The notes: generated from the sequence alone by a model not told the origin. DNA of 64,000 nucleotides from Actinobacteria bacterium HGW-Actinobacteria-7 (GCA_002841275.1 PHET01000010.1:1-64000); one strand, 5' to 3'. Shown: positions 5,133-26,599, counted from the first letter of the stretch. Program-made: numbers and translations.

Positions 5133-5173
5133 GCTCGCGCACTCCCCTCGGGCTCACGAGACCTGGCTCGACG

Positions 5174-6088
5174 CTATACCCGGTCGAGCCACTCTTCGTA
5201 GGCCTCTTCCTCACCGTGAACCACGCGGAAGAACGTCGCCTGCAGATCCAGCGTGATCGGGCCGGGCGTGCCGATGACATGCCCGTCCACGGCGCGCACC
5301 GGCACCAGCTCGGCCGCCGATCCGGTCATGAAGAACTCATCGGCGGTGTAGAGATCGGTGCGGACAAGAGACTCCTCGAGGACCGGGTAGCCCAGGTCAT
5401 CGGCGATGATCATGACCGAGTCACGCGTGATGCCCTCGAGCAGTCCGTCCGAGACGGGCGGCGTGGAGAGCACGCCGTCACGCACGATGAACAGGTTCTC
5501 GCCGGTGCCCTCGCAGACCTTGCCCTCTTCGTTGAGCAGGATGGCCTCGGCATAGCCGTGACGGTTGGCCTCGATGCGGGCGAACGAGCTGTTGAGGTAG
5601 TTGCCTGTGGCCTTGACCGCCGGGGGCATCGAGTTGATACCGCGCTGGCGCCACGACGAGATACCCACATCAACGCCGTTGGCAAGCGCGTCCTCACCAA
5701 GGTAGGTGTCCCAGGGCCACACGGCGATGATGACGTTCACCGGTGCAGGCACCGGATCGAGGCCCATCACGCCGTACCCGCGAAATGCCAGCGGACGGAT
5801 ATAGCAGCTCTGGAGCTTGTTTGCTCGGATGGTCTCCTTGACCGCCTCGACCATCTCATCGACCGAGTAGGCGAGCTCCATGTAGAGCATCTTGGCCGAG
5901 CGCTCGAAACGCTCCATGTGGTCGCGCAGGCGGAAGACCGCGGGGCCATCAGCGGTCTCGTAGCAGCGGATTCCCTCAAAGACTCCGGAGCCATAGTGCA
6001 GCGCGTGGGTGAGTACGTGGACCTGGGCCTTGTCCCAGTCGACGAGCTCGCCATCCATCCAGATCTTGTCCACGGTCGGCAGCGACAT
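5174..6088 (-). CDS. ilvE: Branched-chain amino acid aminotransferase
   Basis: The protein has 304 residues starting at the ATG of MSLPTVDKIW, with GAAAGGGG about 10 bases upstream; the open frame extends a few codons further. It is a class IV PLP aminotransferase. Visible family motifs are THALHYGSGVFEGIR at the start, the lysine in VKATGNYLNSS that forms the Schiff base, EGTGENLF, and the glycine-rich TGSAAELVPV near the end. The enzyme makes the last step of valine, leucine and isoleucine synthesis with glutamate. It is transcribed between leuB and cimA, consistent with one branched-chain amino acid operon. Confidence 0.95.
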   Translation of the reverse strand: MSLPTVDKIWMDGELVDWDKAQVHVLTHALHYGSGVFEGIRCYETADGPAVFRLRDHMERFERSAKMLYMELAYSVDEMVEAVKETIRANKLQSCYIRPLAFRGYGVMGLDPVPAPVNVIIAVWPWDTYLGEDALANGVDVGISSWRQRGINSMPPAVKATGNYLNSSFARIEANRHGYAEAILLNEEGKVCEGTGENLFIVRDGVLSTPPVSDGLLEGITRDSVMIIADDLGYPVLEESLVRTDLYTADEFFMTGSAAELVPVRAVDGHVIGTPGPITLDLQATFFRVVHGEEEAYEEWLDRV

Positions 6089-6150
6089 CGCGTACACACC
6101 CCTTTCGCGCATCCGGACTATTGAGTCGTAACAGTGTACCCGACCAACCG

Positions 6151-7260
6151 CTACAGGCGAGCCACAACCAGCTCCCCCATCGCAGAGGTTCCCAGGATCT
6201 TTTCAGACAGCGTGTCAGCGCTCGCGATGTCACGCGTGCGCCACCCGTCGGCGAGCACGCCCTCGATGGCCGCGGCAAGCTCGTCGGCCGCGTCATGCAT
6301 CGCAAAGCTGTAGCGCAGCATCATTTCTACCGAGAGGAGCATCGCGAGCGGGTTGGCAACGCCCTGGCCTGCGATGTCGGGCGCACTGCCGTGGCTGGGC
6401 TCGTAGAGCGCCGTGCCGTCTCCCAAACTCGCGCTGGCAAGCATGCCCAGCGAGCCGGTGAGCATCGAAGCCTCATCAGAGAGGATGTCGCCGAACATGT
6501 TCTCGGTGACCATGACGTCGAACTGCGCCGGCGTGCGGATGAGCTGCATCGCCGAGTTGTCGACAAGCTGGTCGACGAGTTCGACATCCGAGTACTCCGC
6601 CTCGTGCAAGCGGTGCACGACCTCACGCCACAGGCGGCTCGACTCGAGCACGTTGGCCTTGTCGACGCTGTGGACACGATTGCCGCGGGTGCGGGCGGCC
6701 TCGAATGCGATGCGCGCGATCCGCTCGATCTCATACTCGCTGTAGGTCATCGTGTCGTAGGCGCGCATACCCGCTCCGCCACCCGTCGCGGCTCCTTCGA
6801 CACCCGTCTCACGCGCACGGTCACCGAAGTACAGCCCGCCGGTGAGTTCGCGGACGATAAGCATGTCCACGCCCTCAAGGAACTCCGGCTTGAGCGACGA
6901 TGCGTCGCGCAGCGCGTCGAAGATCTTCACCGGACGCAAGTTCGCATAGAGCCCCAGTGCCTTTCGGATGCCGAGAAGCCCCTGCTCCGGACGTGGTTTG
7001 GCTGGATCGGTGGTGTCCCACTTAGGGCCACCGATGGCAGCGAGCAGCACCGCGTCGGCCGCTTTGGCGACCTCGAGGGTGGCTTCCGGTAGCGCCGAGC
7101 CGGTCGCGTCGATGGCGGCCCCGCCCAACAGCGCCTCGCTGAACTCGAATGCCACATCGTGCTTCAGGCCGATAGCGCCCAGGACCGTGACCGCCTCGGC
7201 GGTGATCTCCGGACCGATTCCGTCTCCGGGCAGCAGGCAGATGCGATACGAGGTGCTCAC
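6151..7260 (-). CDS. leuB: 3-isopropylmalate dehydrogenase
   Basis: The protein has 369 residues and a GTG start overlapping the leuD stop as GTGA. It begins with the family signature [11 protein letters not shown]. The substrate helix reads [16 protein letters not shown], the form found in isopropylmalate dehydrogenases, and the cofactor loop HGSAPDIAG carries the Asp-Ile pair expected for NAD. It oxidises and decarboxylates 3-isopropylmalate to 2-oxoisocaproate and, in a citramalate route, 3-methylmalate to 2-oxobutyrate. Compare the related enzyme at 33581-34672, whose substrate and cofactor loops differ. Confidence 0.96.
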
Positions 7261-7751
7261 GAGCCCACCTTCTCACGTACCGCCGCTATCAGCCCGCCCT
7301 TCTCGATGATGTCCTGGATCATGGGAGGGAATGGCTGCGTGTGGAACACCGCCCCTGTGGTGACGTTGGTGATCGTGCCGGTCGATGCGTCGACAGCCAC
7401 GACGTCACCGTCACTGATACCGTCCACGGCCTCCTCGGACTCCAGGATGGGCAGGCCGGTGTTGATGGCGTTGCGGTAGAAGATGCGCGCGAAGCTCTTG
7501 GCGATGATCGCCGAGATGCCCGCGTGCTTGATGGCGATGGGTGCGTGCTCACGAGAGGATCCGCAACCGAAGTTCTCGGCCGCGACGAGGATATCGCCAG
7601 CCTCGACCTTGGAGACGAAGCCGGCGTCCAGATCCTCAAGGCAGTGCTTCGCGAGCTCCGCCGGGTCTGATGTGTTGAGGTAGCGAGCCGGAATGATGAC
7701 ATCGGTATCGACGTCCCGACCGTACACGTGTGCGCGTCCCTCGAATCGCAT
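7257..7751 (-). CDS. leuD: 3-isopropylmalate dehydratase small subunit
   Basis: The protein has 164 residues from the ATG at 7751, preceded by AAGGGAG; the longer frame upstream lacks a ribosome site. Motifs are [15 protein letters not shown], where the YLNTS loop is the isopropylmalate type, [11 protein letters not shown], and [18 protein letters not shown]. It forms the swivel subunit that pairs with LeuC to isomerise 2- to 3-isopropylmalate. The leuC gene is 11 kb upstream, beyond the cytochrome block; normally leuC and leuD are adjacent. leuD overlaps leuB by four bases. Confidence 0.95.
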
Positions 7752-7782
7752 GGCAGGCTCCCTTTCCAGATGCGGCCACGAA

Positions 7783-7801
7783 ACGCCTCGTGTGGAGGCG
7801 T
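7783..7801 (-). terminator. Short hairpin after the 7-heme cytochrome gene
   Basis: ACGCCTC (7783-7789) and GAGGCGT (7795-7801) form a perfect 7-bp stem with a 5-base loop. On the minus strand the stem is followed by TTTCG. It lies between the cytochrome stop at 7854 and the leuD start, so it could end the cytochrome transcript. The stem is short and the T-run weak. Confidence 0.35.
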
Positions 7802-7853
7802 GAGCGTTGTCGGATTCTAGCACGCGGAGGCCGTCCTGTGAGCGTGGATGCCG

Positions 7854-9518
7854 CTAGGGCGTGCTCGACGTGTCGGACGCAGGCTCCGACGCCGGCGGGG
7901 GCTCGACTGCGACTGCTGCAGCCGCTTGGGCAGCGGCCTGCGCTGCGGCCTCGACTGCGCCCGGTGACACCGGATCGTGCGCCGGCCCTGACCTCGGATG
8001 GCAGCGCAGGCACACGGTGCTTCGGGCATTGGACGCCGTGACCTCGGCCGGCTCGACGTCGCCACCCGCTCCCACCGTCCAAGCGCCCAGCATATACGCG
8101 CCACTGGTCTCGGCCGAATGCGGAAAGTCGCTTGCCGACCGCGCGGAATCCACCGCGTAGGAGCCGGTGCCGTAATGGCAGAGTTCACACTCGGTCTGAT
8201 CCGGTTCGTACGCCGCGTCCGTTGGCGCCGCGCTGAGTCCTCCACGATGGCATGTGTAGCACTGACCGGGACCGTTGTACGCGCCCACCAAGGGGGCCGC
8301 ATGCGTCATCGAACCTGAATGCGCATCGGAATCCAAGTTCGTATACGCCTCGTCATAGCGACCGATCGCGAGGTTGTGGCAATCCGCGCACCACACCGAG
8401 AGCGCGTACTGGTCGACGCCGGCGGGTGAGCGTTCCTCCTCCGGAGCCGCGGGAGACGCACCAATGGTGGTGCCCAACGACGGTGTATCCCATATGGTCT
8501 TTCCCAGCCCTACAGTGGTAGGCGCCAACGTCGACTCCACCGTTCGGATCACCGCACCCGCGTTCACCAGACCCGTCGTGCGGAAGTCCGTGTACGCCTG
8601 ACCATTGATCATGCCGTCCGTGCTGTAGGAGACCGTGGGAGGCCCGCCGGCACCGTACGGCATGTCATCGGGTCCGTAGATCGAGCCCGACGGACTGGCG
8701 CGCAGAAGCATATAGCCCGTCTCAAGCGACTTGTCCCGTGACGGAAACGCCATGGGCCGCCACGCCTGGCTTGGCGCGTTGTGCGGCTGATGGCAAGAGA
8801 GGCATGTCATGGGGAAAGGTCCGACCCTCGAGTAGCCCGAGCGCAGGTCACCCGGTGGGGACTGCGTATGATGCTGTTTGAATCGGTACATCTTGTTGGG
8901 AGCACCGACCTCGCGCACGGGGACGGTAACGGTTGTCACGACGCCAGAGGCGTCCGTGCTGGCAACATCGGTCGTGATGAGGGTGACCGAGACGGCCGAG
9001 AGGGGAATCACCGCAGATGCGCCCATGTGGTGTCCTACAGACGTGTCGGTACCGGCAGGGTTCACGTCGTAGACAACAGCGTTGGAGTGCGCAGACCCTA
9101 TATGGCAGTACTCGCAGGCGTCAGCTTGCGTCGCCGCGCGCAGCAGCTCGTAGGAGCCCGCCGCCCGATGGACCGCGTGGCAAACGCTGCACTTCGACGT
9201 AGCGCTGTCGTAGCCACCGTGCGGGTTGGTCGTGTACAGAGCCGTCGCCGAGTCACCAAAGCTCGCATAGCCACCGGAGTACTTGGGCGCGACATCCTGC
9301 AAGTCCGTGTAGGTGAAGCTGGAGATGACACCGACCACTCCCGAACCGGAGGTCGGTGGCGACTTGGCGGCCGCTGCCGGATCCGCGACAACCGCAGTCA
9401 GCGCGCAACAGATAACGGCAGCAGCGAACACACGCCACGTGCGGTGCAGCGTACGCGGCAACGCCGTCACAGGGCGGGTGCTTGGATTGATGCGGGTATC
9501 GTCACCCCTCGGGCGCAT
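7854..9518 (-). CDS. Secreted 7-heme c-type cytochrome (copy 1)
   Basis: I count seven CXXCH heme motifs: CSVCH, CEYCH, CLSCH, CADCH, CYTCH, CELCH and CLRCH. A basic N-terminus and hydrophobic stretch (VFAAAVICCALTAVV) form a signal peptide ending near PAAAAK; no later membrane helix or cell-wall anchor is seen. I chose the ATG at 9518 because GAGAG lies 9 bases upstream; a GTG at 9548 has no ribosome site. It is a clear paralogue of the cytochrome at 17131-18753: both share YSGGY, NPHGGY, CHAVHRA, NPAGTDT, CHQPHNA, SVWCADCHNL and SDFPHS in the same order. The C-terminus ends in an Ala/Pro/Ser-rich tail absent from copy 2. Likely role: extracellular electron carrier. The hairpin at 9561-9615 separates it from the lipoprotein gene. 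Confidence 0.92.
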   Translation of the reverse strand: MRPRGDDTRINPSTRPVTALPRTLHRTWRVFAAAVICCALTAVVADPAAAAKSPPTSGSGVVGVISSFTYTDLQDVAPKYSGGYASFGDSATALYTTNPHGGYDSATSKCSVCHAVHRAAGSYELLRAATQADACEYCHIGSAHSNAVVYDVNPAGTDTSVGHHMGASAVIPLSAVSVTLITTDVASTDASGVVTTVTVPVREVGAPNKMYRFKQHHTQSPPGDLRSGYSRVGPFPMTCLSCHQPHNAPSQAWRPMAFPSRDKSLETGYMLLRASPSGSIYGPDDMPYGAGGPPTVSYSTDGMINGQAYTDFRTTGLVNAGAVIRTVESTLAPTTVGLGKTIWDTPSLGTTIGASPAAPEEERSPAGVDQYALSVWCADCHNLAIGRYDEAYTNLDSDAHSGSMTHAAPLVGAYNGPGQCYTCHRGGLSAAPTDAAYEPDQTECELCHYGTGSYAVDSARSASDFPHSAETSGAYMLGAWTVGAGGDVEPAEVTASNARSTVCLRCHPRSGPAHDPVSPGAVEAAAQAAAQAAAAVAVEPPPASEPASDTSSTP

Positions 9519-9560
9519 ACGCCACTTCTCTCGGAGATGGTTGGCCACTCAAAGAAACGT

Positions 9561-9615
9561 GAAGCTCCGATTGGATGCGTCGAGTCACTCTCAACACGAG
9601 TCCAACCGGAGCTTC
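9561..9615 (-). terminator. Rho-independent terminator of the NHL/GerMN genes
   Basis: Arms at 9561-9574 and 9602-9615 pair over 14 bases with one mismatch. On the minus strand the stem is followed by ACGTTTCTTTGA. It lies just after the GerMN lipoprotein stop (9663) and before the 7-heme cytochrome start, so it should end the TPR-NHL-GerMN transcript and argues that the cytochrome has its own promoter. Confidence 0.6.
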
Positions 9616-9662
9616 GCACATCAGGCGCTGCGCGTCGATGCGTTCACCGCTCGCGTGGGCTA

Positions 9663-10268
9663 CTACTTCTTCTTGGGCGTCGGGGTCGCCTCAACGGTAG
9701 GCGTCACGTCGAAGGACTGCGCCTCGGCACCATACCGAACGACCTTCCAAGGCTGCCCTTTGAGGGACACTGTGCCCCAGAACTTCTCGACATCCTTGCC
9801 ACCGATCGAACCCTCTTCCTTGCCTTCGACGGTGAACCGCACGAACTTCACTTCGCGGAACTGGCCGTACATCATCAGGATGGCGGCTCGGGCGAGCCGC
9901 TTCTCCTCGTCTGTGGCATCGAAGCCAAGGACCGACTTGTCCCAATCGACGGTGACGACCCCGCCCTTGAACGTAGTGCTGAGGACCTTGGCGGTGGGCT
10001 GAACGACCGCGACATTGGACTCGCTGAGCGGCTCAGCCTCGAGCATCACCCGGAGAGTATCCGCGTAGACGTTCTTCGCGTCCACGACGCGCTGCTCGGC
10101 AATCACGCTTCGTCCGGTCGAGTAGAAGACGGTTGTTTCAGTCGTCTCCTGCGCGATGACCACCGTGGGCTCCGGCACCTTCGAAGACGTGCAGCCCGAA
10201 AGAATCGCAATGGCCGCCAACACCGTCGCCGTTACCGCCAATGTCGACGCGAGACTCCGCTTCGTCAT
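9663..10268 (-). CDS. GerMN-like domain lipoprotein
   Basis: The protein has 201 residues. A lipoprotein signal peptide ends in LSGC with the acylated Cys at residue 26, so it should sit on the outer face of the cytoplasmic membrane. The middle region (TAKVLSTTFKGGVVTVDWDK, then a helix, then VKFVRFTVEG) has the pattern of the GerMN domain found in spore-germination and lipoproteins of unknown role. The tail is Thr/Pro/Lys-rich. Its ATG overlaps the stop of the NHL propeller gene by four bases, so the two proteins are probably made together and may act at the same surface complex. Confidence 0.75.
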   Translation of the reverse strand: MTKRSLASTLAVTATVLAAIAILSGCTSSKVPEPTVVIAQETTETTVFYSTGRSVIAEQRVVDAKNVYADTLRVMLEAEPLSESNVAVVQPTAKVLSTTFKGGVVTVDWDKSVLGFDATDEEKRLARAAILMMYGQFREVKFVRFTVEGKEEGSIGGKDVEKFWGTVSLKGQPWKVVRYGAEAQSFDVTPTVEATPTPKKK

Positions 10269-11746
10269 GACGCCTCACCGGCCGACGCATCCGTACCAGT
10301 GGAACCGGCGGCTGCCTCACGCACTTCGCGATAGGTCAAGCTGCTCAACTCGAGTGTCTCAGCGGCCAGCAACATGGGCTCATCGTTGACGAGCAGTACC
10401 GACTTCTTGCCCGCGTGCATTGCCACGTACAGTGCGGCGGCGTCCTCCTGCTCGAGAGAGAAGCGCTCCATGAGCTCCGGCACGGCATCCGCATCGTAGC
10501 GCTTGCCCAGGATGCGGAGATCGTTGACCGACTCCTTGTTCGCAGCGGCGAAGTCATCAGGTGCGTTGACGCGCTTGAGCATCCCAACGACCGAGTCGCG
10601 ATTCTCTGTGTCGACTTCTAGGGCCGTGAGGAACGACGGCGCCATCACGTAGCGACTGGAGCGGCGCAGGAAGAACGGGATGAGGAGCAGCGGTATGAGG
10701 AGCAACAGGCCCCACGCGGCATTCTGGGTCAAGCGATCCGTGGCGGACGGGGCCATGGGAGCGGTGAAGACCTCGATGCGGTCGTTGAACTTGTCGGCGA
10801 TAGCGAGACGCCCGCCATGATAGGCGATGCCATCCGGGTAGTAGAACGTGCCGTCAGCATGCCCCACATCCCCGAGATACTCGATGAACTTGCCGTTCTG
10901 GTCCAAGACGACGATCTGAGAGCTGAGACCATCGACTACATAGGAGTAGCCGTTCTGGTCAACAGCAACGTTGGAGGGAAGACCGAACTTGCGGTCGGGA
11001 CCGTTGTACATGACTGCCTGATCGGGAGGGATCGGCTTACCATAGACCCACTTGACCTTGCCCTTGGTCGTGATCGCCTGCACACGGTAGTTCAATGAGT
11101 CCGCGACGATGAGCGTTCCATCGGGTGCGATAGCGACGTTGCCCGGCATGTCGAACTCGCCGGCACCCTTACCCCATTTCACGTAACCCGTCTGGAACCT
11201 GCCATCGAGCCCGCCGATGACTACACCACTGCGGGTGGTCACGAACAGCGTGTCATTGGCCACCGTCACGCCGGTGGGTGACTCCGGGAACGTGATCTCT
11301 CCCGTGGCGACGTGCTGCGCGCTGTACAGAACCATCTTCTTCAGGCCCTTATCGATGACGAAGGCCCGACCGTCAGGGGCGACGGCGACGGCGATAGGCT
11401 GCCACAGCTGCTTGACGCCCTTGCCAGGCTCTCCACCGAACGTGGAGATGTAGCCACCGCTGCCATCGAACACAACGATGCGACGCTTGCCCGTATCGGC
11501 AACATAGATGTTGCCCTGCTCGTCGAACGCGACACCGGTCGGTCGACGGAGGAGATCACCCTCGAAGCCGTAGATTGAGAACAGGAAGTGCCGATCCTTG
11601 GCGCCAGCCTGCTCGGAGTCGAACTTGGGGGCCTTGGTCAGTGCCCAGTACAACCCACCCAAGGCGGCGAGCACAAGCGCCAGGACCAGCGTGATGACCA
11701 CGCTGAACACCAGCGAGCGTCGGGTGGAAGCGTAAGAGGAAGCCAC
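10265..11746 (-). CDS. Membrane-anchored NHL-repeat propeller protein
   Basis: The protein has 493 residues. A TM helix (about 12-36) leads to repeated NHL blades with the pattern RPTGVAFDEQGNIYVADT, at least five of which can be read between about 60 and 330. A second TM helix (GLLLLIPLLLIPFFLRR, about 345-361) is followed by a cytoplasmic tail of about 130 residues with helices and a SVLLVNDEPMLLAAE strand. The propeller should face outward. NHL proteins are recurrent neighbours of filament-forming multiheme cytochromes such as OmcS and OmcE; that is known for the family, and its relevance here is inference from the flanking cytochromes. Confidence 0.85.
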   Translation of the reverse strand: MASSYASTRRSLVFSVVITLVLALVLAALGGLYWALTKAPKFDSEQAGAKDRHFLFSIYGFEGDLLRRPTGVAFDEQGNIYVADTGKRRIVVFDGSGGYISTFGGEPGKGVKQLWQPIAVAVAPDGRAFVIDKGLKKMVLYSAQHVATGEITFPESPTGVTVANDTLFVTTRSGVVIGGLDGRFQTGYVKWGKGAGEFDMPGNVAIAPDGTLIVADSLNYRVQAITTKGKVKWVYGKPIPPDQAVMYNGPDRKFGLPSNVAVDQNGYSYVVDGLSSQIVVLDQNGKFIEYLGDVGHADGTFYYPDGIAYHGGRLAIADKFNDRIEVFTAPMAPSATDRLTQNAAWGLLLLIPLLLIPFFLRRSSRYVMAPSFLTALEVDTENRDSVVGMLKRVNAPDDFAAANKESVNDLRILGKRYDADAVPELMERFSLEQEDAAALYVAMHAGKKSVLLVNDEPMLLAAETLELSSLTYREVREAAAGSTGTDASAGEAS

Positions 11747-11769
11747 AGTCAGTCTCCTTCGAAGGACGG

Positions 11770-12516
11770 CTATTTAGAGGGCGTCGCGGTGATACTGGGA
11801 GCAGGCTTGGTCCCGGCTGGCTCGTCTCCCTGTCGCTCGGCCTTGACGGCTGCTTCAGCCTTCTTGGCGTCGGCGGGATGAGCCTTCATGATGCGGTCGA
11901 AACCGGCTCGTCCGGCGGTGTCCTGGGGGTCGTACTGCAGGACCCAAACGTAGTCCACCGCAGCATCGTACCAACGCTTCAGCCGTTCATTCATGGCGGC
12001 GCGCTCTAGTATGACCAAGATATTCTCAGGTCCGAAGTCAATCGCCTTACCCATGGAGTCCAAGGCTCCCTTAGCGTCACCCTGCTTCTCTTGGACCTTG
12101 GCCAGCGCCACGAAGACGTCCTGATAGAACTGCGCCACCTGACCATCGGTGGTGGCCGCCTTGGTCAGCGACTTGATGGCGCCCGCGGAATCGCCTGTGG
12201 CGTCTTGGGCTAGGCCCAGCACGTACTGAGGGGAGGGGTCACTCGGCTGCAGTCTGACAGCGAACTTGGCCTGTTCGAGCGCGCGTCCGTTGCTGTTCTG
12301 CTCAAGATAGGCGGCTGCGAGTTTGATACGAGCGGTCGGATCGTTCGGGTTGGCCTTGACGGCCTCCTCGGCAGAGAACACGGCGCGCTCAAGTTCTGTT
12401 CGGGGCGCCGCTGGACGGCCACCGGAGAAGAAGAACCACAGTAGAGCACCTGATACGACGACAATGCCGATGACGAGCAGCGTCATCACCATCTTCAGGA
12501 TTGTCTGTACTCGCAT
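11770..12516 (-). CDS. TPR-repeat membrane protein
   Basis: The protein has 248 residues with one N-terminal TM helix (about 8-30), then tetratricopeptide-like repeats, seen as the spaced helices beginning ELERAVFSAEEAVKANPND, RALEQAKFAVRLQPSDPS and AIKSLTKAATTDGQ. The C-terminus is a charged linker rich in Ala, Lys and Pro. It probably scaffolds other proteins outside the membrane, as in cytochrome-biogenesis or assembly complexes. It is the first gene of the minus-strand set TPR-NHL-GerMN, with 23 bases before the NHL gene, and is divergent from the FxLYD gene. Confidence 0.85.
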   Translation of the reverse strand: MRVQTILKMVMTLLVIGIVVVSGALLWFFFSGGRPAAPRTELERAVFSAEEAVKANPNDPTARIKLAAAYLEQNSNGRALEQAKFAVRLQPSDPSPQYVLGLAQDATGDSAGAIKSLTKAATTDGQVAQFYQDVFVALAKVQEKQGDAKGALDSMGKAIDFGPENILVILERAAMNERLKRWYDAAVDYVWVLQYDPQDTAGRAGFDRIMKAHPADAKKAEAAVKAERQGDEPAGTKPAPSITATPSK

Positions 12517-12686
12517 GTCCTTGACCAGCTCCTGTCATACTACTTGGATGTCCTGCCGAGCGGAACGACTACTGACCCATGATACGTACCCAACACATCA
12601 CGGCATCAAGGTTTCCTAACGGCACGACTATTGCATATTCCGTGCCATGCTCTGTTGGTAAAGTCGCAGCATGAAGGAGTCTTTGG

Positions 12687-13097
12687 ATGCGCAAAACCGC
12701 AATCGTGTTGATCGCGCTACTCGTTGCCTTGGCGGTAGTGGTCGTGTTCCTTCTGAGCTCGCCTGACGCTCAGGACCTGTTGAAGGGTCACAAGACAATA
12801 AGCAGCGCAGCACAGATCGACAAGCTGGTCATCGGGTGGGTGGGAAACCCCTACACGGACGACTACCAGAACAGCCGCATAGCGGGCTACATGCAGAACA
12901 ACTCCACGCAGAAGCTCTCGAAGGTCAACATCGAGATCGAGTTGCTCGACAGCAAGGGCAACCGCAAGGAAATCGTGAAGTACACGCTCGAGAACGTGCT
13001 GCCGGGTCAGCGCAAGAGCTTCGACGCAAACGCAGGGACCCTGGACGGCTCGCGCAACGCGAAGGTCAAGATCACCAGCGTGGAAGTGGTGAAGTAG
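12687..13097 (+). CDS. FxLYD-like domain membrane protein
   Basis: The protein has 136 residues, starting 8 bases after AAGGAG. One N-terminal TM helix (IVLIALLVALAVVVVFLL) is followed by an extracytoplasmic beta-sandwich with the pattern IAGYMQNNSTQKLSKVNIEI and ENVLPGQRKSFDA, typical of FxLYD domains. The family has no catalytic role; it is common in surface proteins of Gram-positive bacteria. The gene is 3 bases upstream of a lipoprotein gene, forming a two-gene unit that ends at the strong hairpin at 13663-13711. Confidence 0.8.
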   Translation: MRKTAIVLIALLVALAVVVVFLLSSPDAQDLLKGHKTISSAAQIDKLVIGWVGNPYTDDYQNSRIAGYMQNNSTQKLSKVNIEIELLDSKGNRKEIVKYTLENVLPGQRKSFDANAGTLDGSRNAKVKITSVEVVK

Positions 13098-13100
13098 CCG

Positions 13101-13646
13101 ATGCACCCAACGAACACAACTCGACTCCTCAAGTCAGGAGTGGCACTGTTGGCCGCTGCTGCGTTGGTACTTCCGCTCGCCGGGTGCGGCAGAGACCCGC
13201 AACAGGTCCAGATCATCTCCGGGCCGGAAGCCGCCACCGGGCTTAGCCCCACGGAGCGCGGCCGTGTACGGACCGTAGCACTGCGTGCCGCCCACGCAGG
13301 CATGGACACCTGGACGTCCAACAACCTGGCCGCCATGGGAAAGCTGTGGGACACCACGTACGTCGAGAAGTACACGAAGCTCGACAAGCAGTACTCCGCT
13401 GAGGGCAAGAAGCGGATCCGCAAGATCAACGACGTCGAGACCTTCGATGTCACCGACATGAACCGCGCCGGTACACAGGTCATTGTTGACATCTACTTCA
13501 CCGATGGAAGCTACTTCGCCGACAAGAACGGCAAGGCGATCTCGAAACCGTCGAACGCGAAGAAGACGATCCAGCTGACGATGGAAAAGCGTAGCGGATC
13601 CTGGATGATCACTCGCATGATCACGGCAAACGACGTCGCTCAGTAG
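13101..13646 (+). CDS. Lipoprotein of unknown function
   Basis: The protein has 181 residues. The signal peptide ends in the lipobox LAGC (Cys29). The mature part begins with a polar linker followed by a small alpha/beta fold with a long helix (RTVALRAAHAGMDTWTSNN) and paired strands late in the sequence (VIVDIYFTDGSYF and KKTIQLTMEKR). This is the outline of a SnoaL/NTF2-like or DUF4878-type domain, but I cannot name it with confidence. It follows the FxLYD gene by three bases and is translated from the same message. Confidence 0.75.
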   Translation: MHPTNTTRLLKSGVALLAAAALVLPLAGCGRDPQQVQIISGPEAATGLSPTERGRVRTVALRAAHAGMDTWTSNNLAAMGKLWDTTYVEKYTKLDKQYSAEGKKRIRKINDVETFDVTDMNRAGTQVIVDIYFTDGSYFADKNGKAISKPSNAKKTIQLTMEKRSGSWMITRMITANDVAQ

Positions 13647-13662
13647 ACGCACACAAGACGCT

Positions 13663-13711
13663 GCACACAAAGAAGGGAGCGGGCACCACGCCCGCTCCCT
13701 TCTTTGTGTGC
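13663..13711. terminator. Bidirectional terminator, perfect 22-bp stem
   Basis: The arms 13663-13684 and 13690-13711 are perfectly complementary over 22 bases with a 5-base loop. The outer stem contains the A-rich/T-rich runs AAAGAAG and CTTCTTT, so it can act on both strands. It sits between the convergent lipoprotein (ends 13646) and the 10-heme cytochrome gene (ends 13737). Confidence 0.85.
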
Positions 13712-13736
13712 CCGTGCGGCGCACCCGCCACAACCA

Positions 13737-14954
13737 TCAGAGGCCGTCCACGATCGCCTGTTCCTGTGGCGAGCGCGGGATGTCCCGCTGGTACGAATCG
13801 GGGCCCGCGATCGGGTTGTAGCGCTTCGCGTAGGAGTTCGGATGGCAGAACCCACATAGCGTGGTGCTGTGGCAGCTGAAACACGAAGACAGCTCGCCTG
13901 CCTTCTGCCCTGTCGCCTCCAGTCCGTGCTCCTTGACCCACGGCTTGCCACCATGCATCGAGCCGAGCAACCCGTGGCAGGAACATCCCTCATCGCCGGG
14001 AACGAGCGGCTGCCCCTTCTTATAGTGGCAACGCGCGCACATGTCCCGGTTCACAAATCCTGCACGGGCATGAGACCCGGACCAGTAGGCCCGGTCATCA
14101 GGGTTCAGATACGGACCCCAACCTTCAGGATGGGGCATCACCGTGCCGTGGCACCTCAGGCAGTTGCTCCCTTCGTGACACGCTCCCACGCAGGTGACCT
14201 TCACTTTGACCGACGGCGTCTCACCACTGCGCGCGGCCGCGGCCTGTGCAAGGTCCTGCACGTGGCACACGGCGCAGGTCGCAGATGCCGTCTTCCCATC
14301 ATGGCAGGGCAGACACTGGCTCATCTTGGGTCCCGGAGACTCGCTCCCCGCAGCGTGTCCGATATCACTGTGACACGTCGTACACGGCGATGAGCCCAGG
14401 AACTCCTTATGGCTCACGCGGATACCCTTGGCGACAACAGAGCCCTTAGCGACGCTGTCGTGGCACGACAGGCAGCTCCGTGAGCTGACATTCGCAGTCT
14501 GGCTGCTGTCTACGGTGCGGGACCGGATACTCTGTGTCCATCCCCAGCGAGCATAGTCCAGTGCGTTCTTCACGGGGGCCGTGACGCCTGTCGCTCCGTG
14601 ACAGCGCACGCACGAGGTGCTCTTGTGCGGGGACTTCGCCAACTGCTTGCTCGTCGCCACGTGACACGAGTTACAAGCCGGTTTGGTGTTGAGACCCAGC
14701 TGAAAGACGGTAGGGACCAGAAGCACTATGGCCAACACGATGACTCGTCGAGGCCACGGGTTGTGGTGTGCGGCCTCCTTCGTCTGGACAAGCATGTCGA
14801 GACGACCCCGAGGCGAGAACAGGTACCACACGTACGCGATCGAGAAGCCCAACCACAGGATGAACACGAGCACGCCAACGCCCAGCACAATGCCGAAGAC
14901 TCCGCCCTGGGATGCGGCATCGCGCATGTTGGTCAGCACATCGCGAACGTTCAT
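13737..14954 (-). CDS. Membrane multiheme cytochrome, 10 canonical hemes plus two odd motifs
   Basis: The protein has 405 residues from the ATG overlapping the upstream cytochrome stop (ATGA). Two TM helices (about 18-46 and 67-87) anchor it, and the rest is extracytoplasmic. Ten CXXCH motifs are present: CNSCH, CVRCH, CLSCH, CTTCH, CLPCH, CAVCH, CLRCH, CARCH, CFSCH and CGFCH. Two further motifs are unusual: CVGACH (CX3CH) and CSCH (CXCH). Together with the 12-heme partner it resembles NapC/NirT-like quinol-oxidising or periplasm-spanning cytochromes of Gram-positive metal reducers. The partner gene and shared translation suggest a two-subunit conduit from menaquinol to surface acceptors; this function is inferred. 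Confidence 0.9.
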   Translation of the reverse strand: MNVRDVLTNMRDAASQGGVFGIVLGVGVLVFILWLGFSIAYVWYLFSPRGRLDMLVQTKEAAHHNPWPRRVIVLAIVLLVPTVFQLGLNTKPACNSCHVATSKQLAKSPHKSTSCVRCHGATGVTAPVKNALDYARWGWTQSIRSRTVDSSQTANVSSRSCLSCHDSVAKGSVVAKGIRVSHKEFLGSSPCTTCHSDIGHAAGSESPGPKMSQCLPCHDGKTASATCAVCHVQDLAQAAAARSGETPSVKVKVTCVGACHEGSNCLRCHGTVMPHPEGWGPYLNPDDRAYWSGSHARAGFVNRDMCARCHYKKGQPLVPGDEGCSCHGLLGSMHGGKPWVKEHGLEATGQKAGELSSCFSCHSTTLCGFCHPNSYAKRYNPIAGPDSYQRDIPRSPQEQAIVDGL

Positions 14955-15961
14955 CGTACGTTCACCGGATTGGCCAGGAGCAGCTTCTTGAGCTTCTCGG
15001 GGAGGCCTGGGTGTATGTGCTTGGTGTGGCACTCCTCACAGGACTTGTTGCTATGGCACCGCAGGCACAGGGCCCTGTCCTTCTTGGCCTGTGTTGGGTG
15101 CACCTTGAGGAAGCTCCGGGGGTGAGGCATGGTGATGCCATGGCAGTTATCGCACGAGTGTCGCGTGTGACACTTCATGCATCCCGTGCGGTCAGCGACC
15201 TTCATCGCGACCACCTGAGGACCGTGGTCGGAGAGATAACCGCCGGGGTGCGGGACGGGAGTGTTGTGGCATTTCAGGCAGACCGACTGCTCATGACACC
15301 CTTTGCACGTGGTCAGATCGCCCATACCGTGCGTCTTCTCCCACAGCGCACCGTGCGTGACCCGCCACGGAGTAGTCCTGCTCGGGGCACCCGAACCGCC
15401 CTCTAGACTGGTGTGGCACACCGAGCAACTGCTCAAATCCGTTGGGCTTGCACTGTGACAAGCCATGCACGTGTCCATCGAGTACCCCAGCGGCCAGGAT
15501 ACCGCCGAGTGGCCGCTGTCCGGGTGGCACGACACACACGACATGCCTTTCGCCAGCGGCGCGCGGTGGTTCATGATCAGGCCACTGCGCGTGGTCGTCT
15601 TCGACAGTTCCTTGGGAGAGTGGCAGGCGAGGCACCGAGCCTCATCCACAGGCGTGAACACCGTGGTCTTCGCCCCCACGACCGCCCGGACCGTCATGTC
15701 CACCACCTGAAGGCGGCTTTGCAAGACGCCCAGTGTGTCAGCCCCACCGTGACAATCGGCGCACGTCACTGACGAGTGGGTTGAAGCTTTGAGCGCTTTG
15801 GTCTGCACCGCATGACATGATTCACAGGTCGCAGGTGATGCGGCGGCAATCACGACTACTGCGGCGAACAGAATCACTGCTGCAATCGCAGACAGCGTGA
15901 TGAACCACAGCCGTTCGGCCATGTGCGCGGTGTCAGTGCGCTGGGTGCGTTCGTCAGCCAT
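14951..15961 (-). CDS. Membrane-anchored 12-heme c-type cytochrome
   Basis: The protein has 336 residues with one N-terminal TM helix (about 18-40, uncleaved) and 12 CXXCH motifs: CESCH, CADCH, CLACH, CVSCH, CMACH, CSVCH, CKGCH, CLKCH, CMKCH, CDNCH, CLRCH and CEECH. Spacing between hemes is short (one per about 25 residues), as in chain-like multiheme proteins. Several extra histidines (VPHPGG, TMPHPRS, KHIHPG) could be distal ligands. It lies 3 bases after a membrane protein gene and overlaps the 10-heme gene, so the three are one operon. I expect membrane-to-surface electron transfer. Confidence 0.9.
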   Translation of the reverse strand: MADERTQRTDTAHMAERLWFITLSAIAAVILFAAVVVIAAASPATCESCHAVQTKALKASTHSSVTCADCHGGADTLGVLQSRLQVVDMTVRAVVGAKTTVFTPVDEARCLACHSPKELSKTTTRSGLIMNHRAPLAKGMSCVSCHPDSGHSAVSWPLGYSMDTCMACHSASPTDLSSCSVCHTSLEGGSGAPSRTTPWRVTHGALWEKTHGMGDLTTCKGCHEQSVCLKCHNTPVPHPGGYLSDHGPQVVAMKVADRTGCMKCHTRHSCDNCHGITMPHPRSFLKVHPTQAKKDRALCLRCHSNKSCEECHTKHIHPGLPEKLKKLLLANPVNVR

Positions 15962-15964
15962 GCG

Positions 15965-16948
15965 TCATTTCCCGGTATCCCCCGATGTCGAGTCCACGGG
16001 CCCGAGCGACGAAGACGGGATGTCGGCGGTCGACTTCCCAAACAGGTACGTGTTGGCCTGAACGCCTTGCAGATCGCGCGACTGGAAGATGGCAACGGTC
16101 CTATAGAGCGGGCCACCGATCTGCTCGAGAAGCGCCTGACTGCGAGCGACACTCGCGACTCCGTTGGCGGGGTTCGTGAACGAGGTCTTGACCCACGTCA
16201 CGTAGCGCCCCTTCTGCCACGCAGCGACCTGAACACGCCGGTTCTTTGCGTAGGAGACTGTCGCTGTGATCCCCTCTTTCAGTCGCACGTCGCTGCTCTG
16301 GGTGGGGTACTTGGCAATGAGGGCCTCGTAGGCCTGTCGCGCGCCGGCCTCAGAGGAATAGCCATCCACTCGCGCGTAGACCACCGTAGCGGCCATTGCG
16401 ATCGAGTTCATGTTGTACGTCTGGTAGATGGCCTCTGATGACTGCCCGTCTGTGCCGGGTACAAGGTGTAGGTCGATGGTCTCGTATGCCAGAACATTGT
16501 CCGGCAGCATCTTTCCGGGGCCCTTTGGCAACGGTGGCGCCGCAGACTCAGTGGCCCCAGAAGACGAGCTGCTACTCACCACGACCTGGCGACCGAGAAA
16601 CGATGTGCCGTCAGGCATGACCCAGCTGGACAATAGCGCGAGCAGTACCGCGACACCCGCCAGCCCCATGAGTATCTGTGACAAGCGACGCTCTGGCACG
16701 TGAGCGACCGGTTGCGTGACCAGCTCGACCGGCTCCACGAAGCCTTCGAATCGAGCCAGCGCCTCAGGGGATGGCACGCGAACCGGGGCGGGCTCCGGAA
16801 GGGCCGAGGACGGAGCCGGCGCCGTTTCCTGCTGATCCGGCTGAACGTCGGTCGGACGCGCAGAATCGGTGTCGACGTTGTCCGCGGGCGGTGTCGGTCC
16901 GCCAAGGCGCGCGCGAAGTCTCTCGCTGATGTCAGGAAGCTCGCTCAT
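15965..16948 (-). CDS. Single-pass membrane protein of unknown function
   Basis: The protein has 327 residues from an ATG after TAGGAG. Residues 1-90 are cytoplasmic, acidic and proline-rich, ending in a short basic stretch. A TM helix spans about 91-111, then a serine-rich linker, then an extracytoplasmic domain of about 190 residues with alternating strands and helices and no cysteine. The late part (RRVQVAAWQKGRYVTWVK) resembles DUF6599-like anchored domains, but I do not recognise it firmly. It is the first gene of an operon with the 12-heme and 10-heme cytochromes and may be an assembly or anchoring partner. Confidence 0.75.
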   Translation of the reverse strand: MSELPDISERLRARLGGPTPPADNVDTDSARPTDVQPDQQETAPAPSSALPEPAPVRVPSPEALARFEGFVEPVELVTQPVAHVPERRLSQILMGLAGVAVLLALLSSWVMPDGTSFLGRQVVVSSSSSSGATESAAPPLPKGPGKMLPDNVLAYETIDLHLVPGTDGQSSEAIYQTYNMNSIAMAATVVYARVDGYSSEAGARQAYEALIAKYPTQSSDVRLKEGITATVSYAKNRRVQVAAWQKGRYVTWVKTSFTNPANGVASVARSQALLEQIGGPLYRTVAIFQSRDLQGVQANTYLFGKSTADIPSSSLGPVDSTSGDTGK

Positions 16949-17050
16949 GGTCTCCTAGGTGCAAAGCTCATGCCTAGCACGGCCGCATGCACCGCATCTC
17001 CAAATCCTACCAGAGTAGCGTCGCGCCAGAGCACGTCGCTCGGATTCGAA

Positions 17051-17085
17051 GAGGACCCCCGCGATTCTACATCGCGGGGGTCCTC
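17051..17085 (-). terminator. Hairpin after the second 7-heme cytochrome
   Basis: The arms 17051-17065 and 17071-17085 are perfectly complementary over 15 bases with a 5-base loop (TCTAC). It lies 45 bases beyond the stop of the cytochrome at 17131. There is no long T-run, but the stem is GC-rich and the position between two separately controlled genes fits termination. Confidence 0.65.
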
Positions 17086-17130
17086 CCCTCAGCCTGCCAT
17101 CAGATCAGCAGACCCTGCGAACTGTCCCTC

Positions 17131-18753
17131 TTAGTTGTGCACGCCGATGCCGGGGTGGCAGCGGAGGCAGACAGCGTCGAGGTTGTCCTCGGTGAGGTTG
17201 ACCGACTTGTAGGAGTTGAATCCAGTCGTCGAGCCAGCGGTCATCGAAGTGGTGTACGAACCGAGCATCTTGATGTCGGTCGCGGAACCAGAGTGCGGGA
17301 AGTCAGATGCACGCGTGTTGCGGTCAGCCTGGTAAGCAGACGTACCGTAGTGGCACTGCGAGCAGCTGCTCGAGCCAACCATAGCGGAGGCAGGAGTCGC
17401 GGCCTGGTTCATGCCGTAGCCAGTCGGGTCCGCCTTGGCGATCTCGACCGAAAGGTCGTTGCGGTGGCAGCTGTAGCACTGGCCAGGACCGGAGTGCGAA
17501 CCCACGTAAGGAGCAGGGTGCGTACGCTCGGTATGAGCCTTGAAGCCGAGCTCCTCGTTGGTCAGCGCCTCGGCGCCACCGATGTTGAGGTTGTGGCAGT
17601 CAGCACACCAGACAGAAAGCGTGTACTGGTTGACCGTGGCCGGATCCTCGGAGGGACCAGAACCAGCGTACTCGGCCGACATGTTCTGAGCGATCCAGGT
17701 CGGCTGCGTGGTGACAGCACCGTTCTCGTTGTAGATCTTCTCGCCCGAGCCGTCCTGGCTGTAGTTGAAGCCAGCGGTGAGCGTGGTCTCCGGAACCTTG
17801 ACGGCCAGACCGGAGTCGATCATGCCGTACTCGTTCAGACCGGCGGTCTGGGTCGTGACCTTGGTGGTACCAGAGGTGGTCGTCGCATCGACGTATACCG
17901 GCTGGTTCACAGTGCCGGCGGTGGTGGACTTGGTCCACGTACCGGACGGGTAGCGACGGAGGAGCTTGTAGCCGTTGGTCAGAGCGGCACCGTCAGCAAC
18001 GAGCGCGGTGTCGTAGCTGGCCGGCTGCCACACCTGAGCGGCCGCGTTGTGCGGCTGGTGGCAGCTGAAGCACGACAGGGAGTTCGGGCCGACGGGCTTC
18101 CAACCGGAGCGGCCGTTGGTGACGGCGCTCTGGCTGTGGTGACGGCTGAATCGATACATCTCGACGGGCTCGTCGTTGTACGAGCGAACCTCGACGGTCT
18201 CCGTGATCGGGTTACCGGTGGAGTCCGTACCGCTGACGACGACCGGGGTCGCGTTCTGGTCGGTCGCGCTGTCCGGTACGATGAACGCGCCCATGGTGTG
18301 GCCGTTCGTGGTATCGGTGCCGGCGGGGTTCAGGTCGTAGACGATCTTGTCCGAGTGGGCGCCGCCGCCGATGTGGCAGTAGTCGCAGGCGTCGGACTGG
18401 CTGTCGCCGCGGAGCAGGTAGTAGGCGCCTTCGGCACGGTGAACGGCGTGGCACACCTTACATTTGTTCGAGGTGCTGCTGTAGCCGCCGTGCGGGTTGG
18501 TGCCAAAACCTTCAGTTGCGGTGCCGGCAACCAGTGCACTGCCGTCGAAATACGTGCCTACGGAAAACGCAGCCTCGGCCGCGTAGCCGCCGGAGTACTT
18601 GGCAGCGCTGTCCTTCAGGTCCTGATACGTGACAGGAGCGGCGAACGCCGCGGAAGCCATGCCAAGGACGAAAGCGCCCGTGAGCACGGCGAGAAGCATC
18701 TTCTTCATGCGGGTCTCCTTCGGAGAGTTACTTTGCAGGATAGTTGACCTCAT
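17131..18753 (-). CDS. Secreted 7-heme c-type cytochrome (copy 2)
   Basis: Seven CXXCH motifs are present: CKVCH, CDYCH, CFSCH, CADCH, CYSCH, CSQCH and CLRCH. A signal peptide (LLAVLTGAFVLGMASAAFA) precedes mature APVTYQDL. No anchor or membrane helix follows, so the protein is released or assembled outside the cell. Two in-frame starts each have a good ribosome site: ATG 18753 (AAAGGAGGTG, 8-base spacing; 540 residues) and ATG 18708 (GAAGGAG, 6-base spacing; 525 residues). I give the longer one because its Shine-Dalgarno match is stronger, although MKKMLLAVL from 18708 is the more classical signal sequence. It is a paralogue of the cytochrome at 7854-9518. Low aromatic content, many Ser/Thr/Gly repeats and seven closely placed hemes would suit a polymerising surface cytochrome. 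Confidence 0.93.
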   Translation of the reverse strand: MRSTILQSNSPKETRMKKMLLAVLTGAFVLGMASAAFAAPVTYQDLKDSAAKYSGGYAAEAAFSVGTYFDGSALVAGTATEGFGTNPHGGYSSTSNKCKVCHAVHRAEGAYYLLRGDSQSDACDYCHIGGGAHSDKIVYDLNPAGTDTTNGHTMGAFIVPDSATDQNATPVVVSGTDSTGNPITETVEVRSYNDEPVEMYRFSRHHSQSAVTNGRSGWKPVGPNSLSCFSCHQPHNAAAQVWQPASYDTALVADGAALTNGYKLLRRYPSGTWTKSTTAGTVNQPVYVDATTTSGTTKVTTQTAGLNEYGMIDSGLAVKVPETTLTAGFNYSQDGSGEKIYNENGAVTTQPTWIAQNMSAEYAGSGPSEDPATVNQYTLSVWCADCHNLNIGGAEALTNEELGFKAHTERTHPAPYVGSHSGPGQCYSCHRNDLSVEIAKADPTGYGMNQAATPASAMVGSSSCSQCHYGTSAYQADRNTRASDFPHSGSATDIKMLGSYTTSMTAGSTTGFNSYKSVNLTEDNLDAVCLRCHPGIGVHN

Positions 18754-19188: not shown

Positions 19189-20457
19189 TCAGCTCAGGTC
19201 GTCTGGCAGGGCGATGTGACCGGCAACGGCCGTTGCAGCGGCCACCGCAGGCGATGACAGGTAGACCTCACTGGTGGGATCCCCCATGCGTCCGACGAAG
19301 TTGCGGTTGGTCGTGGCAACAGCGCGCTCCCCTGCCGCCAGAATGCCCATGTGACCACCAAGACACGGTCCGCAAGTCGGCGTGGACACCGCTGCACCGG
19401 CATCGAGGAATACGTCCATCAGACCCTCATGCATGCACTGGCGCCAGATGTCCTGCGTTGCCGGCAGGATGATGAGTCGCACGCCATCCGCGACCTTGTG
19501 CCCCTTCAGTACGCCCGCAGCAACGCGCATGTCCTCGATGCGGCCGTTCGTGCACGAGCCGATCACGACCTGATCTATCTTCACATCGCGCGCATCGGCC
19601 GCGGCCCGGGTGTTGCTCGGCAGATGCGGGAACGCGACGGTGGGGACGATCGTGGCGGCGTCTATCTCATATACCTGTGTGTAGACGGCGTCGGGATCCG
19701 AGTGATACTCGGTCCATGTACGCTCGGCCCTGCCCTCGAGATACGCGCGGGTGATATCGTCCACCGCGATGATGCCGCTCTTGGCGCCCGCCTCGATGGC
19801 CATATTGCATACTGTCATCCGGCCGTCCATGTCCATACAATCGAACACGTCGCCCGTGAACTCCATAGCCTGATACAAGGCCCCGTCAACGCCAATCATT
19901 CCGATGATGTGCAAGATGACGTCTTTCGGCGACACCCACGGCGCCAGCTGGCCTGTCACGTTGAACTTGATACTCGACGGGACCTTGAACCATGACTCGC
20001 CTGTCGCCATCGCAGCTGCTACATCGGTCGAGCCGACCCCCGTAGCAAACGCGCCGAGCGCGCCGTACGTGCAGGTATGCGAATCCGCGCCGATGATGAG
20101 ATCGCCGGGGCCTACGACACCCTGCTCGGGCAGGAGCGCGTGCTCAACGCCCATGCAGCCGATCTCGTAGTAGTGCGTGATTCCCTGAGCGTGAGCAAAG
20201 TCACGCATGATCTTCGCCTGCTCGGCGGATTTGATGTCCTTGTTGGGTGTGTAGTGGTCGGGAACAAGCGCGATACGCGTGTTGTCCCATACTTTGTCCA
20301 CTCCGACGCGGCCGAACTCTCGAATCGCGATGGGGGCGGTCACGTCGTTGGCAAGAACGATGTCGAGCTTCGCGCCAACGAGCTGCCCGGGCTGAACCTC
20401 GGCCAGGCCTGCGTGTGCCGCGAAGATCTTCTCAGTGATGGTCATAGGTCGAGACAT
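19189..20457 (-). CDS. leuC: 3-isopropylmalate dehydratase large subunit
   Basis: The protein has 422 residues. It carries the aconitase-type 4Fe-4S ligands: one Cys in [12 protein letters not shown] and a pair in [25 protein letters not shown] and [12 protein letters not shown] are further family motifs. It is the short (about 420 residues) bacterial/archaeal LeuC form that works with a separate small subunit. It starts three bases after the leuA stop with GAGGAG upstream. Its partner leuD is on the far side of the 11-kb cytochrome block. A second LeuC-like protein at 35947-37206 probably serves another substrate. Confidence 0.95.
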
Positions 20458-20460
20458 GTC

Positions 20461-22005
20461 CTATAGCTCCTCTTCGACGGTAGGAATCTGGCTGACGAGC
20501 AGCCGGTTGAGAGCGTTCATGTACGCTTTGGCCGATGCCACGATGATATCCGAGTGCGCGCCCCTGCCGGTGAAGATGCGACCATCGCCGCTTGTGACCC
20601 TGATGGTCACCTCGCCAAGAGCATCGATACCGCGGGTGACCGCCTGGACGCTGAACTCGGAGAGTTCGTTGTCCACCTGAATCAACCGGTTGATAGCCTT
20701 GTATACCGCATCGACCGGGCCGGTGCCGTGGCTGGAATCTATCAGATGCTCGCCATCCTGCGTTACCAGCTCGACTGTTGCTGTTGGAATCCCGGGGTCC
20801 CCACTGGTGAAATGTACTTGCGCAAGGTGGTAGACCTCGTTGACGGTCCGCTCGGTCTCCCCCACCAGAACCTCAAGGTCCTCGTCGTAGACCTCCTTCT
20901 TCTTGTCGGCGAGCTCTAGGAATGCGGTGTGGACTCGCTCGAACTCTTCGTCGGGCAGCACGTAGCCGAGCTCCTCGAGGCGGTGCCTCAAGGCGTGACG
21001 TCCACTGCGTGCGGTGAGCACGATTGCGCTGCCGCCTGCACCGACGTCGACCGGATCGATGATCTCGTAGGTCGAACGCTCCTTGAGGACGCCATCCTGG
21101 TGGATCCCGCTCGAGTGGGCGAACGCATTGGCGCCCACGATCGCCTTGTTGGGCTGGACGCGAATGCCCGTGATGGTCGAGACGAGACGGCTCGTGCGCA
21201 CGATCTCCCGAGTGTTGATCCCGGTGTCCACCCCAAAGACGTCAGGGCGCTGCTTGAGCGCCATGACGACCTCTTCCATCGCCGTGTTGCCGGCGCGCTC
21301 TCCGATGCCGTTTATCGTGCACTCGATCTGGCGTGCCCCCGCCCGGACTCCGGCGAGTGCGTTGGCCGTGGCCATGCCCAGATCGTTGTGACAATGAATG
21401 GAGACAATCACGTCCTCGATTCCGGTGACGTTCTCCATAAGGCCGCGGATGAGATCCCCGAACGCCTCGGGATACGCGTAGCCGGTGGTATCCGGAATAT
21501 TGATGACCGTGGCACCAGCGGCGACCACAGCCTCGACCATGCGGTACAGAAACTCGGGATTGGCTCGGCCTGCGTCCTCGGCGTAGAACTCGACGTCACC
21601 CACGAGGTTGCGCGCGTACTTGACCGCCGCGACCCCGCGCTCGAGCGCTGTCTCCTCAGAGATGCGGAGCTTGTCTCGAAGATGACTGTCGGAGACGCCG
21701 ATACCCGTGTGGATGCGGGGACGCTTCGCGGTGGCAAGAGCGTCGGCGGCGACGTCGATGTCGTTGAAGATCGCGCGAGTGAGCCCGCACACGACTGCCG
21801 CATCGCCCACCTCGGTACCGATGCGACGGACGCTCTCGAAATCTCCTGGGCTGGAGACCGGGAAGCCCGCCTCGATCACATCGACGCCCAGCCGCACGAG
21901 CTGACGTGCGATCTCGAGCTTCTCCTCTGTGTTCATGCTTGCGCCCGGCGACTGCTCGCCATCGCGCAGTGTCGTGTCGAATATGTAGACGCGTTCGGTA
22001 CTCAT
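20461..22005 (-). CDS. leuA: 2-isopropylmalate synthase
   Basis: The protein has 514 residues starting at [13 protein letters not shown], 8 bases after GGAGGG; the longer frame lacks a ribosome site. [14 protein letters not shown] carries the catalytic Arg-Asp-Glu, and [13 protein letters not shown] the metal ligands. The C-terminal LeuA dimer domain, which normally binds leucine for feedback inhibition, is complete. It condenses 2-oxoisovalerate and acetyl-CoA as the first committed step to leucine. A 256-base upstream region with a possible leader peptide and a hairpin separates it from serA. Confidence 0.95.
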
Positions 22006-22050
22006 GGTGTCAGACCCTCCTGGTAGCTTCAGTGCCACGGACTTTCGCTT

Positions 22051-22083
22051 GCCGGCGTGTCCCCCCGGGGGACGCGCGCCGGC
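22051..22083 (-). promoter_or_regulatory. GC-rich hairpin in the leuA leader
   Basis: GCCGGCG (22051-22057) with TCCCCC and the opposing GGGGGA...CGCCGGC (to 22083) form a long GC stem with a small bulge. It directly follows the stop codon of the candidate leader peptide and lies 45 bases before the leuA start. That position suits an attenuator or a structure that controls ribosome access; no T-run follows it, so simple termination is less likely. Confidence 0.4.
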
Positions 22084-22211: not shown

Positions 22212-22261
22212 GAGCACCCCTTTCGTGTTCGCGCCGCGGAGCCGCGGCTGCTCCGACCGAA

Positions 22262-23842: not shown

Positions 23843-23851
23843 CGCACATCC

Positions 23852-25066: not shown

Positions 25067-26599
<1,533 letters not shown>

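Follow-up and report, generated by a model that had tools for sequence, protein, structure and literature searches.

A conserved actinobacterial gene cassette encoding secreted seven-heme cytochromes, distant relatives of OmcS, and its possible role in extracellular electron transfer

The question of how single-membrane bacteria move electrons across their thick wall is addressed here with a set of genes in the subsurface actinobacterium Actinobacteria bacterium HGW-Actinobacteria-7. The window, that is, the whole stretch of 64,000 nt that was analysed (GCA_002841275.1 PHET01000010.1:1-64000), contains at 7,854-18,753 a cassette encoding two secreted seven-heme cytochromes (H7A and H7B), together with a 12-heme and an 11-heme membrane cytochrome (H12 and H11). 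NHL and TPR membrane proteins, a pair of lipoproteins and two small proteins of the membrane make up the rest of the set (Table 1; all coordinates are window positions). The four cytochromes have 7, 7, 10 and 12 CxxCH motifs, as compared with 0.01-0.12 in composition shuffles. The host genome is 2.53 Mb, its relatives are metagenome-assembled genomes (MAGs) titled Coriobacteriia and, from these relatives, the host order appears to be OPB41/Anaerosomatales.

A first-pass annotation had described this locus as a candidate filament system made up of two secreted seven-heme cytochromes without an anchor and a 10-heme plus 12-heme membrane pair, accompanied by lipoproteins, a TPR protein and a membrane protein with an NHL propeller. 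These genes were all found in place. The membrane pair and its 12-heme member were confirmed, while the supposed 10-heme partner has an eleventh site, CVGACH (CxxxCH), and is consequently an 11-heme protein. Inspection of the H7A and H7B sequences revealed only a signal segment and no lipobox, LPxTG motif or C-terminal transmembrane segment, so that the description "secreted without anchor" holds by sequence.

The preferred reading of the gene set, taken as a whole and with a probability of roughly 0.55, is that of an extracellular electron transfer cassette of a single-membrane actinobacterium. In this reading, which infers quinol oxidation, an outward direction of electron flow and the formation of a polymer, H12 and H11 would draw electrons from the quinol pool and hand them on to H7A and H7B, which would stack end to end, crossing the cell wall and reaching beyond it. 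Assembly or docking would fall to the membrane-bound TPR and NHL proteins together with the lipoproteins. The TPR protein may handle the apo- or holocytochrome and the NHL protein may provide an outward-facing platform, roles that their position alone suggests. The proposed route from quinol through H12/H11 and H7 to the outside follows from the way in which H12 and H11 begin, which is that of the NapC/NrfH family of membrane quinol dehydrogenases, with N-terminal transmembrane helices followed by NapC/NrfH-type heme motifs. However, NapC/NrfH proteins have four (or five) hemes, whereas H12 and H11 have 12 and 11. For cytochrome c maturation, the genome has System I genes (CcmE, CcmC/F family); the ResB system was looked for in the genome and not found, the CcmE and CcmC/F-type genes being found instead.

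Relation of the seven-heme proteins to OmcS

OmcS of Geobacter sulfurreducens (6ef8, 6nef) forms electron-conducting filaments, helical polymers in which all hemes are bis-His, and is secreted without an anchor, as are, by sequence, the H7 proteins. The OmcS query sequence was checked against PDB u98630. When the H7 profile was compared with OmcS (PDB 6ef8) by hhalign, a probability of 96.8 and a score of 81.1 were obtained over OmcS residues 5-407. The scores of 300 heme-preserving shuffles (two sets of 150) had means of 31 and 34 and maxima of 50 and 59, and those of 90 unrelated, non-H7 multiheme proteins had a mean of 38 and a maximum of 67. The alignment was full-length and collinear over all six OmcS heme motifs, with an identity of about 21%; H7 hemes 1-4, 6 and 7 aligned with OmcS hemes 1-6, and H7 heme 5 was extra. 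The retained features are the histidine that precedes heme 1, the CHxxH of heme 1, the CHxPH of heme 3 and the WCAxCH of heme 4. With filters and bias correction off, HMMER gave 44.7 bits for H7 against OmcS compared with shuffle means of 21 and 22 (0 of 1,000 as high). The corresponding z-score was about 4.6 for OmcS, and multiheme proteins of the H11/H12 type reached 3.9.

A bridge between the two families was found in the host order, where the single strong homolog returned by a search with OmcS was the 6-heme protein L092 (27% identity; pairwise BLASTP E=9e-12). L092 scored 61.5 bits against the H7 profile (z=10.7 above its own heme-preserving shuffles) and lies about 3.5 kb from a TPR-NHL pair. 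Loci L092 and L097 (G107:C7) both represent this 6-heme OmcS homolog, near TPR-NHL and distantly related to H7.

The conservation of hemes and histidines was scored over 28 H7 relatives, and a set of 18 sequences gave nearly the same picture. Seven heme sites were present in all 28, heme 6 being either CxxCH or CxxxCH, and H7 was consequently filed as an OmcS-related family and not as OmcS. On the evidence of these alignments, H7 is a distinct seven-heme branch of an OmcS-related superfamily. Among the histidines outside the motifs, 88, 105, 152, 235 and 487 were invariant, His412 was present in 27 and His407 in 24 of the 28 sequences. There are thus seven conserved histidines for seven hemes, a count that equals one distal ligand per heme. 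The invariant His105 matches the position of the CHxxH that follows heme 1 in OmcS, the histidine of which (His16) is presumably an inter-subunit ligand. Published work on the OmcS filament confirms only that heme 5 receives one ligand from a neighbouring subunit, with eleven axial ligands coming from within the chain (PMC6584659; PMC9473688).

Distribution of the cassette and of the TPR-NHL pair

The search for H7 relatives covered 298 genomes of the class at the protein level, 396 genomes of the phylum with a profile and, in a single scan, the GTDB representatives. Several families of the same order contain such relatives, which also occur in Candidatus Aquicultor primus and secundus, in MAGs related to these and in one Thermoleophilia MAG, on a 4.6-Mb contig. 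The set of TPR, NHL, H7, 12-heme and 11-heme genes recurs in Coriobacteriia/OPB41-like MAGs, in Candidatus Aquicultor and in the Thermoleophilia MAG, so that its conservation extends across actinobacterial classes. At 21 independent H7 loci (L060 and L104 counted once, as one place, and several contigs stopping within the cassette), the genes within 10 kb of H7 were TPR (18), a gene or genes for 10 or more hemes (18), the single-pass membrane protein (17), NHL (15), the small lipoprotein (14), the FxLYD protein (13) and the GerM lipoprotein (12). The co-occurrence of NHL and seven-heme genes, for which a survey had been suggested, was seen at 15 of 21 loci, with exceptions that are considered below.

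In the H7 tree, the Thermoleophilia sequence nests in a well-supported clade of H7A and relatives from the order, which suggests horizontal transfer. H7B groups with the second H7 of another lineage (G577), which also carries an H7A-type gene, so that the layout with two H7 genes is older than this genome.

The NHL protein family was present in 66 of the 69 genomes of the order. At 40 sampled NHL loci, TPR was directly upstream in 37 and a multiheme gene was within 3 kb in 37. Three layouts recur: 1) 12-heme/10-heme/TPR/NHL/4-heme/3-heme, 2) TPR/NHL/6-heme/12-heme/11-heme and 3) the H7 type. The secreted 4-heme and 6-heme proteins near TPR-NHL are clear H7 relatives (hhalign 99.8% and 100%) that share the PHGGY...CxxCHxxH start of H7, and such 4-, 6- or 7-heme proteins adjoin TPR-NHL pairs across the order. 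Further TPR-NHL units were observed in the same genome at L043 (G000:C32:80000-99000) and L178 (G000:C2:1-6100), one with 12-, 10-, 4- and 3-heme cytochromes and one with 20- and 11-heme cytochromes. At L152:371-2953, a 6-heme relative is fused C-terminally to a long N-terminal repeat domain (860 aa).

The filament reading of the first-pass annotation thus stood in part: the distant homology to OmcS, the proximity of L092 to a TPR-NHL pair and the conservation of the cassette across classes agree with it, and polymerisation, heme ligation between subunits and metal reduction would be predictions of that reading. Its remark that NHL genes accompany filament-type cytochromes in other prokaryotes is borne out by the literature: Geoalkalibacter and Desulfovibrio ferrophilus have such genes beside cytochromes that are OmcE-like or located on the outer surface (PMC12016550, PMC9769857). 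OmcE-type cytochromes beside NHL-repeat proteins, for example in Geoalkalibacter (PMC12016550), represent the same pairing as in the H7 cassette, although OmcE has four hemes compared with seven in H7; the OmcZ filament class has eight.

A similar wire may carry electrons through the wall of single-membrane bacteria. A more specific proposal, made tentatively and with the odds somewhat against it, is that in single-membrane actinobacteria a dedicated TPR-NHL pair builds wall-crossing nanowires out of the seven-heme branch of the OmcS superfamily. Jointly with it, and equally tentatively, the pair would serve 4-, 6- and 7-heme wires, and H7A and H7B would either form separate kinds of wire or both be subunits of one. 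Earlier proposals concern OmcS homologs in Coriobacteriales (PMC7399161) and, for Gram-positives, polymers resembling that of OmcS (PMC7911101). CwcA of Thermincola ferriacetica is OmcS-related, and a model patterned on OmcS has it polymerise through the Gram-positive wall and receive its electrons from membrane decaheme cytochromes; as described, it has six hemes, belongs to another phylum and is presented with no mention of NHL (PMC7911101). The OmcS homolog of Coriobacteriales S27 (28% identity), from a genome abundant on an anode (PMC7399161), has six hemes and is probably like L092 (27%) and not like H7. No description of the seven-heme family, the cassette or the TPR-NHL rule was found in the literature searched, subscription papers and preprints lying outside the search. 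Unlike that of OmcS, the host of H7 apparently lacks an outer membrane, and the cassette lacks a porin gene. The gene set is defined and occurs in several actinobacterial classes and in an order of which cultured members probably exist; with its OmcS-related protein and the conserved TPR-NHL pair, a candidate for the assembly machinery, it makes the wall-crossing question testable.

Alternatives to a wall-crossing polymer

Several observations weigh against the proposed polymer. The support for the relation of H7 to OmcS comes from profile-profile scores, from shuffles and from the bridging L092, and an ordinary HMM search of the PDB with the H7 profile gave no significant OmcS match, indicating that the relation is distant. 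In the same database, the single-sequence H7 search gave nothing significant, the profile did not significantly match OmcE (E=0.064) or find OmcZ, and the 4-heme and 6-heme relatives gave generic multiheme matches, with OmcS at E=0.005 for the 6-heme set. H7 also carries one heme more than OmcS, and the matched count of candidate distal ligands fits a monomer as well as a polymer. The AlphaFold2 (AF2) model of mature H7A, made with 17 relatives, had a predicted local distance difference test (pLDDT) score of 36.4 and was discarded as unusable. The H7 genes at L056, L060 and L103 occur without the cassette. Finally, the physiological weight of cytochrome filaments is contested even in Geobacter (PMC11077965).

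In a less probable, though still plausible, reading, H7A and H7B stay monomers, secreted or bound to the wall, and act as terminal reductases that load minerals or shuttles and form no polymer, like OcwA and OmhA, the known Gram-positive surface reductases of this kind (PMC12203936; PMC7829351). The H7 chain itself offers a candidate ligand for every heme, and the two distinct H7 genes, one at either end of the cassette, could encode reductases that differ in specificity. However, the filament protein OmcS was the only solved structure found to align full length with the H7 profile, and OcwA (6i5b), present among the PDB matches of the 6-heme relatives, was absent from those of the H7 profile. 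Alternatively, the same apparatus might operate inward or sideways, in electron uptake from minerals or in direct exchange with partner cells, since multiheme chains are in principle reversible and the ACS/CODH genes in the window suggest that the host may be a Wood-Ljungdahl organism that could live on uptake or syntrophy. We regard this as improbable; the isolates of OPB41 couple the oxidation of H2 or formate to the use of Fe(III), thiosulfate or sulfur, so that the flow was outward where tested (PMC9686372). The least probable reading is that the seven-heme proteins are shuttles within the wall space that feed another surface protein, their likeness to OmcS reflecting nothing but shared multiheme ancestry. 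The 4- and 6-heme members of the superfamily beside the same TPR-NHL pair are unlikely all to form the same polymer, as this reading would have it, yet the H7 homologs, at 470-660 aa with long loops, are not of small shuttle size, and the window encodes no further terminal cytochrome.

The proposed extracellular electron transfer is also favoured by what is recorded of isolates. Anaerosomatales (OPB41) isolates carry 17-18 multiheme cytochromes, and one of them, Parvivirga, reduces ferrihydrite and had fine thin appendages only with ferrihydrite (PMC9686372).

Gene order, accessory proteins and genomic setting

Table 1. Genes of the cassette, with strand and the evidence for each assignment
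Feature	Position	Strand	Evidence and remarks
H7B, second secreted 7-heme cytochrome	7854..9548	-	7 CxxCH; start codon uncertain
Lipoprotein with GerM/Germane domain	9663..10268	-	Lipobox LSGC; PF10646 E=2e-9
NHL membrane protein, six-bladed propeller	10265..11746	-	Pfam NHL E=3.4e-19; AF2; Foldseek
TPR protein, N-terminal transmembrane segment	11770..12516	-	Weak likeness to CcmH/CycH TPR domain
FxLYD-domain protein, N-terminal transmembrane segment	12687..13097	+	NF038353 E=3e-8
Small lipoprotein	13101..13646	+	Lipobox LAGC
H11, 11-heme cytochrome, two N-terminal transmembrane segments	13737..14954	-	10 CxxCH + 1 CxxxCH; NrfH-like E=4.5e-8
H12, 12-heme cytochrome, one N-terminal transmembrane segment, NapC/NrfH-like start	14951..15961	-	12 CxxCH; Cytochrom_NNT E=4.5e-7
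Conserved single-pass membrane protein	15965..16948	-	Transmembrane segment 88-114; directly upstream of 12-heme gene
H7A, secreted 7-heme c-type cytochrome, OmcS-related	17131..18708	-	7 CxxCH, signal peptide, no anchor; 525 aa

The order of transcription on the minus strand is H7A, single-pass membrane protein, H12, H11, TPR, NHL, GerM lipoprotein and H7B, and the two plus-strand genes fall between H11 and TPR, inside the cluster. The spacing is 3 and -4 bp in the block formed by the membrane protein, H12 and H11, and 23 and -4 bp in that formed by TPR, NHL and the lipoprotein. The likely start of H11 is the ATG at 14954, within the 4-bp overlap with the 12-heme gene. The probable H7A start, the ATG at 18708, is preceded by the Shine-Dalgarno sequence AAGGAG, and the open frame reaches 18753. 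H7B ends in a low-complexity Ala/Pro tail.

The AF2 model of the NHL protein (pLDDT 81.9) has two transmembrane helices flanking a six-bladed propeller, followed by a C-terminal alpha/beta domain; the propeller is outside the membrane and the C-terminal domain is presumably cytoplasmic. Its Foldseek matches included the NHL domains of Thin and TRIM proteins, with E-values to 3.3e-26, and the extracellular domain of M. tuberculosis PknD. A PIN-like C-terminal domain had been suspected by eye; it had no Pfam support, the Foldseek matches listed were propellers, and it is not claimed. The TPR protein scored 20.8 bits (33.6 bits for that of L049) against the Pfam CcmH/CycH TPR domain, both under the cut-off of 42. 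A Pfam search with the single-pass membrane protein gave no match, and a "SPOR-like" label for it was dropped as being without any support.

The cassette is bordered by leuC (19189-20457) and leuD (7257-7823) and interrupts a leucine/isoleucine operon, with leuA and leuC on one side and leuD, leuB, ilvE and cimA on the other (3555-7823 and 19189-26086). The gene names were assigned from the sequences themselves, and the same arrangement is present around homologs elsewhere. Among 21 other loci, 6 from two lineages have leu genes no more than 10 kb away from H7 (L031, L034, L036, L038, L056 and L103); at L056 and L103 the leuACDB set is more distant from H7 than at the others. An Rfam search of the window gave no regulatory RNA match. 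At the left edge, on the plus strand, the frame 145-1746 for a 533-aa membrane protein with no Pfam match overlaps a radical SAM gene (1688-2563). At 49529-63406, the window encodes a formate-dehydrogenase-like molybdopterin enzyme, a NuoF-like protein, an FlpD-domain flavoprotein and an ACS/CODH beta subunit, genes from which the host probably has a Wood-Ljungdahl pathway.

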